A stretch of 64,000 nt of DNA from the NCBI GenBank assembly GCA_938002255.1, contig CALLAL010000008.1, positions 1-64,000 on the forward strand. The letters are read 5' to 3'. The DNA comes from an uncultured bacterium (GTDB taxonomy: Bacteria > Desulfobacterota > BSN033 > UBA1163). The notes under the pieces were generated by a model. That model made no database searches and was not told the DNA's origin. It saw only the letters and a program-made list of their open reading frames with translations. The position numbers and the translations under genes are program-made. This document shows positions 29,904 to 33,451 of the stretch, piece by piece; position 1 is the stretch's first letter; each line of letters starts with the position of its first letter.

Positions 29904-31841
29904 TCAAACGGTTTCTAAAATGTTCTTGATGGTCTGGGCGAGATGATCGATATCAAAGGGTTTCTGAATAAAGCCATCACAGCCCTTGGCCATGATGTTG
30001 GAAGCTTCCCCATCCAGACTATAACCGCTTGACAGAAGAACTTTCACCTCCGGAGAAATTTCTTTGAGTCGGTCATAGACCTCTCCGCCACCCATATGGG
30101 GCATGATGATATCCAGAATCACCAAATCGATGGTTCCATGGTGTTCTTTGAAGATTTCGATCGCCTTTGGCCCTCCCTTGGCTACCAAGGGCTGGTAGCC
30201 CAGGACCTTTAAGATTTTTTCTCCTACCTCCAGAATGACCTCTTCATCGTCTACCAGAAGGATTTTGCCGGTCGGTTTTAACTGCGGCGCGGAAGACGTC
30301 TTTTGGGGTGGCAAGACTTGGGTCGAAACGGGCAGATAGATCTTGAAGGTTGACCCATGCCCTTTCTGGGATTCCACTTCAATAAAACCGCCGTGTCCTT
30401 TGACGATTCCGTAAGTTGCAGCCAACCCCAACCCTGTTCCTCTGCCTCCTTGTTTGGTGGTAAAGAAAGGATCAAAGATGCGATGGAGGGTTTCTGGGTC
30501 CATTCCCACACCCTGATCAGAAACGGTGAGAAGAACATAATCTCCGGGTTTAGGAAGGTCCCCTTTACCTGGCAACTCATTTACTTTGACATTGGCGGTT
30601 GTTAAAGAGAGGTCTCCTCCCTCTGGCATGGCGTCAGCGGCATTGACTAAAAGATTCATTAAAACTTGTTCGATCTGACTTTGATCTGCCTCACAGGGAA
30701 GGAGGTTTTCCGCAAGATCTCTATGAAGGGTAATATTCTTTCTTGTCCTCCAAAAGATTTCAGACGTATCGATAATCAACCGGTTTAAATCTATCGGTCT
30801 TAATTCATAGCGACCCTTTCGTGCATACCCCAACAATTGAGCGGTCAATTGTGAACCACTTTGAACCTGCTTCTCGATCATTTTCACCATTGCATAATGA
30901 GGATGGGATGTATCCATATCTAAAAGCATAAGAGAGGCATTTCCCTGAATGACCATTAAGAGGTTGTTAAAATCATGGGCAATCCCCCCTGCCAGTGTTC
31001 CAATGGCCTCCATCTTCTGGGACTGAATGAGTTGGGCCTCCATTCTTTTCTGCTCACTCAAATCGGTCAGGATCACGATGAGGCTTCTCTGCGTTTCTTC
31101 GATGATTGGAAGAAGGCGGAGATCCATCGGCTTTTCATTGACGATCAGAGGTCCATTCACATGAACCGGCAGAGGTTTAGAAGGTACACCGGCCTGATGG
31201 AGAATTTCTTTGATCTTTGGACGGTCTGATGGCAGAAAGAGTTCAATAAAATCCGATGAGAGAAGTTGATCCTCAGTTCGGTTTGTTAAGGTCATAGCCC
31301 GCGGATTGGTATAAACGATTTTGCCCTGGGGAGTGATCTCAAAAATTCCCTCCACCATGCTGTTCAGAATGACCTCAAAATGTTTTTTCACAGAGAGGAG
31401 TTCTGTCGTTATGTTGCGTGCGTAGACCTCCTCAATCCCAATGATTTTTGGAGGAGAGGATGCACCGGTTCTTCGATCCGCTAAGGCGAGGCTGGCCAAG
31501 ATATGTTTTGCCATCTTATCCAGAGAGCCTTTGGCAATACAGGCATCTGCTCCGAAGGAGGCGTAATCGACTTCCTGTTCAGCCGCAATGGCTGAAAGAA
31601 TGATGAGATACGTTTCTTTGAGGGCAGGCGTTTTTCGAATGATTTGACATAGTTTCTCTCCACTGATATGGGGCATGATCAGATCGATGAAGATGATGTC
31701 CGGGGTAAAGGTTTTGAGTCGTTCTAGTGCTGAAAGACCGTTATCCGCTGTCAGGACCTGATGGCCTTCTTTCTCAAGCAGTTGAGACATAAACGTCAAC
31801 ATGAGAGGGTGGTTGTCCACGACCAAGATCTTCTTTTTCAT
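29904..31841 (-). CDS. Hybrid sensor kinase REC-PAS-HisKA-HATPase-REC
   Basis: A 645-residue soluble kinase. An N-terminal receiver (about 1-120) has Asp53 (FIDLIMP). A PAS domain (about 155-265) follows, then the HisKA box with His289 (GGIAHDFNNLL), a HATPase domain with NLLVNAADAM, DQGVGMD and GTGLGLA, and a C-terminal receiver (about 523-640) with Asp577 (VILDIIMP). No membrane segments are seen, so it senses an internal or relayed signal. It is 120 nt downstream of the Hpt gene and probably part of the same phosphorelay. Confidence 0.92.
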   Translation of the reverse strand: MKKKILVVDNHPLMLTFMSQLLEKEGHQVLTADNGLSALERLKTFTPDIIFIDLIMPHISGEKLCQIIRKTPALKETYLIILSAIAAEQEVDYASFGADACIAKGSLDKMAKHILASLALADRRTGASSPPKIIGIEEVYARNITTELLSVKKHFEVILNSMVEGIFEITPQGKIVYTNPRAMTLTNRTEDQLLSSDFIELFLPSDRPKIKEILHQAGVPSKPLPVHVNGPLIVNEKPMDLRLLPIIEETQRSLIVILTDLSEQKRMEAQLIQSQKMEAIGTLAGGIAHDFNNLLMVIQGNASLMLLDMDTSHPHYAMVKMIEKQVQSGSQLTAQLLGYARKGRYELRPIDLNRLIIDTSEIFWRTRKNITLHRDLAENLLPCEADQSQIEQVLMNLLVNAADAMPEGGDLSLTTANVKVNELPGKGDLPKPGDYVLLTVSDQGVGMDPETLHRIFDPFFTTKQGGRGTGLGLAATYGIVKGHGGFIEVESQKGHGSTFKIYLPVSTQVLPPQKTSSAPQLKPTGKILLVDDEEVILEVGEKILKVLGYQPLVAKGGPKAIEIFKEHHGTIDLVILDIIMPHMGGGEVYDRLKEISPEVKVLLSSGYSLDGEASNIMAKGCDGFIQKPFDIDHLAQTIKNILETV

Positions 31842-31961
31842 CTTCTTCCCATCCTAAAAAATCCTTAGTGGATTCCGAACGTTCTTTTCCCTTTCCCATG
31901 CCTCCATGAGAAGAGCACGATCCTTAATTTGAGCAGAAAAAGTTTTAAGAGGATTCGACGA

Positions 31962-32297
31962 TTAGGCATCTTTAAACTTCTTGTTCAGGGCAAGGGTCAC
32001 TGCTTCAAGGGTCTTTTTGATCAAAAGAAGTTCAGATTGAATCTCATCTAATTGATTCAATCCTAATGACCTCTCAATTTTCTTTGCCGCATCTTGAATT
32101 TCTGTGAGTCCAAGAATTCCGGCAGCTCCTTTGATGGAGTGGGCCAACCTTTCAACTACAGAAACTTCCTTCATTTTTAGAGCCCTTTCAAGATTTGATA
32201 ATTCTAAAGTCGCTGTCTTCTGAAAAAGGAATAGAAACTCCCGACACTCTTTTTCTTCTATCTCAAGACGACTTGCCAATTCTTTGATATTCATCAA
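31962..32297 (-). CDS. Stand-alone Hpt (histidine phosphotransfer) protein
   Basis: A 111-residue four-helix protein with the phospho-acceptor motif His53 in LAHSIKGAAGILGL. Such proteins carry phosphate between receiver domains. The ATG overlaps the stop of the HTH gene (32297-32294, ATGA), so the two are made together. Its likely partners are the two receivers of the hybrid kinase downstream. Confidence 0.88.
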   Translation of the reverse strand: MMNIKELASRLEIEEKECREFLFLFQKTATLELSNLERALKMKEVSVVERLAHSIKGAAGILGLTEIQDAAKKIERSLGLNQLDEIQSELLLIKKTLEAVTLALNKKFKDA

Positions 32298-32506
32298 CCC
32301 TTCTCCTCTTCCTCAGAGCTTTGAGGCAATTCTTCTCCTTTTAAAAAACGGTAGAGCTCGGATTGAAGAATTCTCCAGCCTTTGCCTGCTTTGATCGCCT
32401 TGATTCTTCCAAGGCGAATGTATTTTAGGAGTGTGGGTTTGGAAACTTTTAAGTATTCCATTGCCTCATCGGTTGTTAGAACATCATCTTTTTCTTTCAA
32501 TGACAC
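32294..32506 (-). CDS. Small excisionase-type (MerR-like) HTH DNA-binding protein
   Basis: A 70-residue protein with a single winged helix-turn-helix of the HTH_17 or excisionase family: LTTDEAMEYLKVSKPTLLKYIRLGRIKAIKAGKGWRI. Phage excisionases share this fold, but no phage genes lie nearby. Coupling to an Hpt gene and a hybrid kinase suggests that it is the output or an autoregulator of the operon. Tandem 10-bp repeats lie at its promoter (32541-32560). Confidence 0.83.
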   Translation of the reverse strand: MSLKEKDDVLTTDEAMEYLKVSKPTLLKYIRLGRIKAIKAGKGWRILQSELYRFLKGEELPQSSEEEEKG

Positions 32507-32540
32507 TCTATTTCTCCCAATTTACCGGTTTTTAATCCAT

Positions 32541-32567
32541 TTTTAGCAAATTTTAGCAAAAATTATA
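32541..32567 (-). promoter_or_regulatory. Promoter with tandem operator of the HTH-Hpt-kinase operon
   Basis: TTTTAGCAAA is repeated exactly head-to-tail at 32541-32550 and 32551-32560. On the minus strand a perfect -10 TATAAT (32567-32562) adjoins it, with a weak -35 (TAAAAA near 32590). Transcription would start inside the repeats, the classic place for a repressor site. Confidence 0.5.
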
Positions 32568-32737
32568 CCGATGGAGCCGGAAGTTTTTATCTTGGGATAA
32601 CTTGCTGTATTTCTAATATGTTTCTATTCAATCAGGCATTAGAAGCGATTTTTTAATTGTTGGCTTTGTTCAAAAAAGGATAAGGAGACACAAGATTTGG
32701 ACACTTTAAAAAGTAGGGATAGGATCAAAAAGAAGGG

Positions 32738-33451
32738 TTAGGTTTCACCAAGATAGGCTTTACGGACCATTTCGTTTTGACGGAGGGATTCTGCTTTGTC
32801 TCTTAGAACGATAGAACCGGATTGAAGGACATATCCGCGACTTGCCACTTGAAGAGCCATACGAGCATTCTGTTCTACCAACAGGATAGTGGTCCCATCT
32901 GCATGGAGTTGACGGATCGTCGCAAAGATGATGTCCACAAGCACAGGGGCTAATCCCATGGAGGGCTCATCCATAAGAAGGACACTGGGATTGGCCATCA
33001 AAGCCCGTCCAGTAGCAAGCATCTGCTGTTCTCCACCGCTGAGTGTCCCTCCCAACTGTTTTTGCCGTTCCCGAAGTCTTGGGAATAGGTTGAACACCCG
33101 TTCGAGATTTGACTCAATCTGATGCCGATCTGTAATCGCAAAGGCCCCCATTTCAAGATTTTCTCGTACAGTCAATCGGCCAAAGATCCGACGGCCCTCA
33201 GGGACCTGAACAACCCCTTTTGCCACAATCTCATGAGGTCGATAGCGAGTGAGTTCTTCGCCCTCTAAACGGATCGATCCAAGGCGCGGCTTGAGCAAAC
33301 CACTGGTCGTTTTGAGCATGGTGCTTTTTCCTGCCCCATTGGCTCCGATGAGGGTAACAATCTCTCCCCTTTCAACATCGAGGGAGACCCCTTTCAGGGC
33401 ATGAATATGGCCATAGTAGGTATGGACGTTTTCGATTTCAAGCAAAACCAT
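32738..33451 (-). CDS. livF: Branched-chain amino-acid ABC transporter ATPase LivF
   Basis: A 237-residue ABC ATPase: Walker A GANGAGKST, signature LSGGEQQML, Walker B LLMDEPSMG and the switch His region LLVEQNARMAL. These features and the position beside livG, livM and livH identify the second ATPase of a branched-chain amino-acid (HAAT family) importer. The amide or amino-acid specificity is not certain. Confidence 0.92.
   Translation of the reverse strand: MVLLEIENVHTYYGHIHALKGVSLDVERGEIVTLIGANGAGKSTMLKTTSGLLKPRLGSIRLEGEELTRYRPHEIVAKGVVQVPEGRRIFGRLTVRENLEMGAFAITDRHQIESNLERVFNLFPRLRERQKQLGGTLSGGEQQMLATGRALMANPSVLLMDEPSMGLAPVLVDIIFATIRQLHADGTTILLVEQNARMALQVASRGYVLQSGSIVLRDKAESLRQNEMVRKAYLGET

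Follow-up and report, generated by a model that had tools for sequence, protein, structure and literature searches.

In a 64,000-nucleotide stretch of DNA from an uncultured bacterium (GTDB lineage Bacteria; Desulfobacterota; BSN033; UBA1163; GenBank assembly GCA_938002255.1, contig CALLAL010000008.1, positions 1 to 64,000; hereafter the window), a minus-strand operon encodes a small helix-turn-helix (HTH) protein of the excisionase type, an Hpt protein and a hybrid histidine kinase with two receiver domains, and an exact head-to-tail repeat of 10 bp lies at its start. Based on sequence comparison, a structure model and analogy with characterized relatives, we consider it on balance probable that the operon is driven by sigma-54 and that the HTH protein forms filaments coating its own start region, in a negative feedback shared by the co-expressed phosphorelay. 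Briefly, transcription would proceed from a sigma-54 (RpoN) promoter, so that an enhancer-binding activator would be needed. The first product, a tiny winged-HTH protein with the BldC/RdfS/Xis fold, would assemble head to tail on A-tract units, one per helical turn, which begin at the -12 box, cross the start site and reach the ribosome-binding site; this coating would shut down the operon. The co-transcribed Hpt protein and two-receiver kinase would constitute a phosphorelay under the same expression control, probably directed to an output regulator encoded elsewhere, and the exact repeat would represent a duplicated array unit, by which the promoter was pushed 10 bp away from the gene.

The comparison covered 17 genomes of the bacterial family of the window, a search at the level of the order having returned the same 17. 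At E<=1e-12 these contain 50 sister HTH genes, and the surroundings of all 50 were examined. Together with two distant HTH genes of the window's own genome (L085 and L087), 52 genes were scored for sigma-54 sites within up to 300 nt upstream, using a sigma-54 scoring matrix and taking a score of at least 10 as a site; L047 was omitted from the counts of upstream sites, its upstream sequence being short, and L086 gave no HTH match by tblastn. For 12 of the 50 sister loci, the HTH start was set at the position aligned to the first codon of the window's gene, which is itself no start codon there; a methionine codon follows at most three codons later in 10 of them and lies directly before it in L058. 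In L074, the open frame starts 15 nt before the aligned position. Since sister genes share ancestry, counts over all 50 overstate independence and the non-redundant counts are therefore the ones to be trusted. In addition, 24 further named loci were considered, namely those of 70 that were not already in the set above (L190, partial, was omitted); all named relatives come from metagenome assemblies, for which the depositors mostly gave Syntrophaceae, Deltaproteobacteria or related groups. Control promoters came from 55 sigma-54-like loci among the matches listed in G010, G014 and G002. A frame and a ribosome-binding-like motif lay close behind 29 of them; 28 of these leaders were used, one being too short.

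The conserved promoter feature of the sister genes is GG-N10-GC, i.e., a sigma-54 -24/-12 element. A site was found ahead of 49 of the 50 sister HTH genes; for other frames of these loci, only 8 of 249 regions upstream have one. The sites are situated 49-83 nt before the first-codon position and are often TGGCAYATATTTTGCT-like, the one sister below threshold (L058) scoring 8.4, and neither L085 nor L087 has one. Among the 24 further loci, 10 carry a site at -57 to -71, and a sigma-54-like site 195-201 nt off in three was left uncounted. Matches to TGGCAYNNNNNTTGCW number 27 in the window's own genome versus 5 for its reversed control; in three relatives the counts are 100 and 8. This genome encodes one RpoN and, among 33 matches to the activator AAA+ profile, 28 domains at E<1e-60; the profile also matches in all 14 control genomes, and weak matches were therefore discounted. 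The window element has the GG/GC spacing of 10 nt (TGGCAY-N5-TTGCW-like) of a sigma-54 promoter, in a genome that encodes RpoN and enhancer-binding proteins. For Desulfovibrio, PMC4641369 gives the consensus as tGGcacg / tTGCt. The perfect TATAAT to which a preliminary description of this DNA had drawn attention is present (32567-32562, minus strand), but it lies within the sigma-54 element, and a sigma-70 scan of the window listed neither a promoter there nor a -35 partner. A sigma-70 promoter at TATAAT was rejected on this ground; reading the hexamer as a -10 box is probably wrong, the sequence pointing to a sigma-54 element instead. The transcription start in Table 1 was counted by the usual sigma-54 spacing.

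The exact 10-bp repeat itself stands as it had been described. Read along the strand of the operon, its first copy contains the -12 box, and its second covers the predicted start site. It is the only exact tandem with a period of at least 10 in the window (periods 8-20 scanned, simple sequence excluded), and none arose in 20 dinucleotide shuffles of the window, so the repeat is beyond chance here. The repeat was rejected as a genome-wide operator, as the 20-mer has no second match at up to three mismatches in the 3.27-Mb genome. The HTH gene is found at the same locus in six relatives (L036, L037, L038, L040, L041 and L048), with the preceding gene ending 412 nt upstream in L037 (where that gene was not scanned) and about 190-240 nt upstream elsewhere. 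The sigma-54 element lies at exactly -54 in all six and at -64 in the window, and the alignment places ten additional bases at the -12 box of the window. The exact tandem is present in none of the six, of which five carry HTH and Hpt genes and one (L048) the HTH gene alone; judged by the alignment, the second copy is a lineage-specific 10-bp duplication, and such a whole-turn insertion leaves the phase of the array intact. The preliminary description had the HTH protein bind these repeats and named their absence from relatives that keep the operon as evidence to the contrary; with the exact tandem missing from all five HTH-Hpt relatives, the proposal does not hold for the exact repeat. Binding is nevertheless plausible in a wider form, supported by phased arrays in the sister leaders and by fold matches to BldC and RdfS, and on the sequence comparison the repeat is still meaningful as one unit of a larger phased array.

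This array has five units, with A-tracts one helical turn apart, and fills the region between the -12 box and the start codon. In the window, the self-match at lag 10 is 24/41, reached by 0 of 2000 shuffles, a value to which the exact duplication itself contributes. In 27 non-redundant leaders (window omitted; 21 from the family and 6 from outside it), the self-match peaks at lag 10 with z 6.4. The corresponding controls gave z -0.5, 0.8 and 2.7 for three stretches lying 5' of these promoters, -1.2 for the 42 nt behind 26 other own-genome sigma-54-like sites, and -0.9 for 243 other upstream stretches. For the 21 family leaders (window omitted), the A-signal at period 10 reaches z 17.1 versus mononucleotide shuffles and z 9.8 and 11.1 versus dinucleotide shuffles, with a phase common to the leaders relative to the -12 box. 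The signal has z 5.6 after removal of the last 18 nt and z 8.0 with a fixed 36-nt leader, a test independent of the HTH start assignment, and for other sigma-54 leaders z is 0.0 with 28 leaders and 1.1 with 29 leaders of fixed length. Individual phasing at p<0.05 was observed in 14/21 HTH leaders versus 2/28 other sigma-54 leaders from four genomes (Fisher p 2e-5), or in 11/21 versus 1/28 with dinucleotide shuffles (Fisher p 1e-4; 10/21 in a separate run); across all HTH leaders the count is 34/50. A weak period (z 3.6) is seen at own-genome sigma-54-like sites if they are taken irrespective of what gene follows, but it is lost in the cleaner control (z 0.7 and 0.0 in two tests). Pairwise identity of the leaders among orthologs is 0.55-0.84 in four groups, versus 0.31-0.46 just upstream of the promoter; in one ortholog group the IHF-like stretch is more conserved than the leader (0.69 versus 0.59).

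The array is not defined by a fixed sequence. AAA repeated five times at exact 10-bp spacing occurs at three places in the own genome, one being the window array, and as a marker of HTH genes this strict form was rejected: only one of its 29 matches in the 17 genomes, the window's own, lies at a known HTH promoter, the other 28 places being without annotation. As a signature, the array is thus statistical rather than a strict sequence. Also dropped was a BldC-like C at four bases past each AT stretch, the signals in the folded base composition being weak. An AT-rich array of one-turn units over the start site is presumably what a filament-forming HTH protein would need for negative feedback.

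Further upstream, a palindrome TGACA-N3-5-TGTCA matching at 9/10 or more was found in 19/49 HTH promoters versus 1.4% of shuffles, and at 8/10 or more in 6/22 non-redundant HTH promoters (window counted) versus 1/29 controls (Fisher p 0.03). Because these counts shrank once relatives were thinned and the position fixed, a common activator site is not claimed; the window promoter has no such palindrome at 8/10 or more. IHF-like sites were scored with WATCAANNNNTTR (a published form reads WATCARXXXXTTR). At 8/9 or more they are present in 26/49 promoters versus 14% of shuffles, and none is claimed for the window.

The HTH protein exceeds both curated cut-offs of the HTH_17/excisionase family, with 52.5 bits (E 5.9e-14, cut-off 27) against Pfam HTH_17 and 46.5 bits (cut-off 28.8) against TIGR01764, and is assigned to it. 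Its structure model (predicted local distance difference test, pLDDT, 85.6) has its best fold match in the BldC-DNA complex 6ama (Foldseek E 7.3e-3, TM 0.61-0.63, Z 7.4, root mean square deviation 1.8 over 54 residues), with 6amk also at the top and RdfS (8dgl) and Xis (4j2n) close behind; both BldC and RdfS build head-to-tail filaments. A link to BldC by sequence profile was dropped, as no BldC chain was found at E<=1. BldC is reported to bind head to tail on direct repeats with an AT-rich minor-groove or shape readout (PMC5859096). In its filaments at one promoter, each molecule takes up one turn of DNA, and RdfS acts as a repressor of its own promoter (PMC11963761). By this analogy, the HTH protein would probably bind the array and the sign of its regulation would probably be negative.

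Table 1. Features of the operon and its promoter region in the window.
Feature	Position	Strand	Basis
Sigma-54 -24/-12 element CGGTATAATTTTTGCT (GG 32569-32568, GC 32557-32556)	32555..32570	minus	Score 10.5, alignment with six relatives
TATAAT of the preliminary description, in the spacer of the sigma-54 element	32562..32567	minus	Sequence
Predicted transcription start (+1), ±2	32544	minus	Deduced from the -12 GC
Exact tandem repeat, 2 x TTTTAGCAAA	32541..32560	unstranded	Sequence, alignment, genome-wide uniqueness
Five-unit, 10-bp-phased A-tract array GCTAAAATTT GCTAAAAATG GATTAAAAAC CGGTAAATTG GGAGAAATAG, proposed HTH operator	32508..32557	minus	Self-match, phasing
Position of the IHF-like element of relatives (e.g., AACAAATAGTTA); degenerate in the window (TACAGCAAGTTA)	32597..32612	minus	Alignment, IHF-like scoring
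HTH_17/excisionase-type DNA-binding protein, 70 amino acids, GTG start	32294..32506	minus	Pfam HTH_17 and TIGR01764 profiles, structure model
Hpt protein, start TTG 32297 or ATG 32294	31962..32297	minus	Pfam Hpt
Hybrid histidine kinase REC-PAS-HisKA-HATPase-REC, 645 amino acids	29904..31841	minus	Pfam

The gene trio of the preliminary description is borne out by the reading frames and by Pfam and NCBIfam profiles. The Hpt protein matches Pfam Hpt with 48.1 bits (E 1.5e-12, cut-off 24.6) and contains the histidine motif HSIKG; proteins 46-52% identical to it come after the HTH gene in five genomes of the genus. In the kinase, H289, D53 and D577, presumably its functional residues, are kept in the single aligned ortholog (L037, 75% identity). 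The HTH and Hpt genes do overlap, but not through the ATGA reported before: at the junction GGTTGATGAAT, the HTH stop TGA and the Hpt ATG share one base (TGATG), or the overlap is of four bases if Hpt begins at TTG, and a second TGA immediately 3' of the HTH stop is the source of the ATGA. The four-base overlap recurs in L036, and the other four relatives have gaps of 14, 17, 30 and 247 nt; the extra sequence in the last, in L040, looks by eye like a small inserted repeat element.

As for the surroundings, the HTH gene lies 231 nt 3' of an operon that Pfam identifies as a branched-chain amino-acid ABC transporter, and an imperfect direct repeat (16 nt, 88%, 32708-32742) is found at and just past the stop codon (32738) of the final gene of that operon. 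Past the kinase follows a convergent gene for a purine/cytosine/thiamine-type permease (Pfam). The ten scanned neighbors are transport, thiamine and housekeeping genes; they include no response regulator, in agreement with the preliminary description, and no integrase (attachment sites were not searched for).

HTH, Hpt and complete kinase genes were found together in G000, G003, G006 and G008. In G005, the contig ends inside the kinase gene, and a kinase piece lies at the end of another contig beside the same permease gene; in G007, Hpt is followed by a 73-codon frame only. The order is not kept throughout, however. L048, from another genus, has the HTH gene with its sigma-54 site and then 137 nt before a convergent gene, with no Hpt and no kinase; conversely, G009, G010 and G011 have kinase relatives (55-58% identical) behind Hpt in another operon, with HTH genes elsewhere (the Hpt of G011, below the 1e-10 threshold, was recognised by eye from the HSIKG motif). 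Since HTH and Hpt genes are both found apart, it is unlikely that they form a dedicated partnership. With these cases, and with no receiver domain detected by Pfam in the HTH protein, the earlier suggestion that the phosphorelay controls the HTH protein is left without support. Where such a relay might have its output is suggested by L195, the one scanned among three loci (L194, L195 and L196) with Hpt and two-receiver kinase relatives in a different operon lacking HTH; this operon also encodes an HDOD protein, another two-receiver kinase and a receiver protein standing alone.

The genes following the 50 HTH genes were assigned by best match to scanned representatives (Pfam). A hybrid kinase comes next in 15 cases, a HEAT-repeat protein in 13 (followed by an HD_5 protein in the scanned case) and Hpt in 6; a histidine kinase, an HD_5 protein, a response regulator (RR)-HD_5 and an RR-GGDEF protein come next once each. 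The remaining 12 comprise NMT1-type solute-binding proteins (2), CutA (2), urocanase (1), GmrSD (1), unassigned genes (4) and loci with an opposite-strand gene first (2). In L044 (G013), the HTH gene and its sigma-54 site stand ahead of a urocanase frame together with a gene for an aromatic amino-acid lyase, and in L061 and L065, from two genomes, ahead of a CutA-like gene. Outside the family, L177, L178 and L180 have the HTH within a 179-amino-acid protein under a sigma-54 site; the one scanned (L178:4001-4540) is an HTH_17 protein that ends in a PilZ domain at its C terminus (5e-13); in L164 and L177, PilZ proteins come next. The HTH-PilZ protein of L178 is possibly a version of the same regulator that responds to cyclic di-GMP (c-di-GMP). 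Phosphorelay and c-di-GMP genes are thus the partners to which this HTH class is linked, though not exclusively.

Several observations weigh against feedback by a filament on the array. With dinucleotide shuffles about half of the 21 leaders are individually non-significant, and none of the six leaders taken from outside the family has a clear array (p 0.13-0.82). The fold matches are modest, the fold is common, and phage packaging proteins (7lwr) are tied within 1 Z, so that other families remain compatible; the sign of regulation is taken from analogy. In the window, the sigma-54 score is the lowest of 49 and both the upstream palindrome and the IHF-like site are degenerate, and the promoter may for these reasons be partly decayed. 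Moreover, A-tracts at one-turn spacing curve DNA on their own. It is possible, though we think it unlikely, that the sigma-54 promoter is real and the phased A-tracts serve only for intrinsic curvature, for easy melting or as a leader that favors translation, with the HTH protein acting elsewhere. That the unit sequences differ among loci and that the leaders of L054, L065 and L083 lack phasing would fit such an explanation. However, the 28 other sigma-54 leaders from four genomes have no such period (z 0.7 and 0.0), and the closest fold relatives read DNA shape of this kind (PMC11963761).

We regard as improbable a decaying sigma-54 promoter that drifts toward sigma-70, with the duplication as neutral slippage in AT-rich DNA. 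The low score, the GGTA of the window where the six relatives have GGCA, the degenerate upstream sites and the GTG start would be accounted for, whereas the three intact frames, the exact spacing of the -24 GG and -12 GC and the preserved array phase speak against it. The model of the preliminary description, with sigma-70 acting at TATAAT, the repeat as a specific operator and Hpt output onto the HTH protein, draws on the perfect hexamer, the exact repeat and the overlapping genes; given the missing -35 partner, the missing repeat in the five HTH-Hpt relatives, the separate occurrence of HTH and Hpt-kinase genes and the HTH protein without a receiver domain, it has very little left in its favor.

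Beyond the window, we tentatively suggest that, in an expanded family of tiny filament-forming HTH proteins of these deltaproteobacteria, sigma-54 promoter, phased operator and HTH gene might form a portable self-limiting cassette placed before phosphorelay, c-di-GMP or other genes, in which steps of one 10-bp unit tune the feedback and paralogs read mainly their own arrays. The 50 sister genes in 17 genomes offer a natural series of matched pairs of protein and candidate operator, all with a single type of promoter, on which filament binding by DNA shape and the feedback on enhancer-dependent promoters can be tested directly, and the window illustrates how a sigma-54 promoter can be masked by a TATAAT and a repeat. 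No literature on such HTH genes under sigma-54 promoters was found among the matches listed, judged by titles and abstract openings.

Compared with known systems, the kinase and Hpt protein have the PAS-HisKA-HATPase-REC order and the separate Hpt of CckA-type phosphorelays, but the kinase has an extra N-terminal receiver and reaches 381 bits with the best CckA model (NCBIfam equivalog cut-off 1000). The Desulfovibrio vulgaris sigma-54 promoters likewise have -24 and -12 elements, in a genome with many activators; in a term search, the main text of that study did not contain the words excisionase, helix-turn-helix or MerR (PMC4641369). RdfS and the phage Xis excisionases belong to the HTH_17 group and have a similar fold, but the window gene has no integrase among its ten scanned neighbors and so lacks what would mark a phage or integrative and conjugative element excisionase. 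The BldC family of Streptomyces (6AMA, 6AMK), the best fold match, appears to resemble the HTH protein as a MerR-like winged HTH of about 70 amino acids without an effector domain, and BldC forms head-to-tail filaments on AT-rich repeats at one turn per molecule (PMC5859096, PMC11963761). The HTH protein differs from BldC in sequence (22% identity) and in genomic setting, being a predicted DNA binder whose gene opens signaling operons behind a sigma-54 element.

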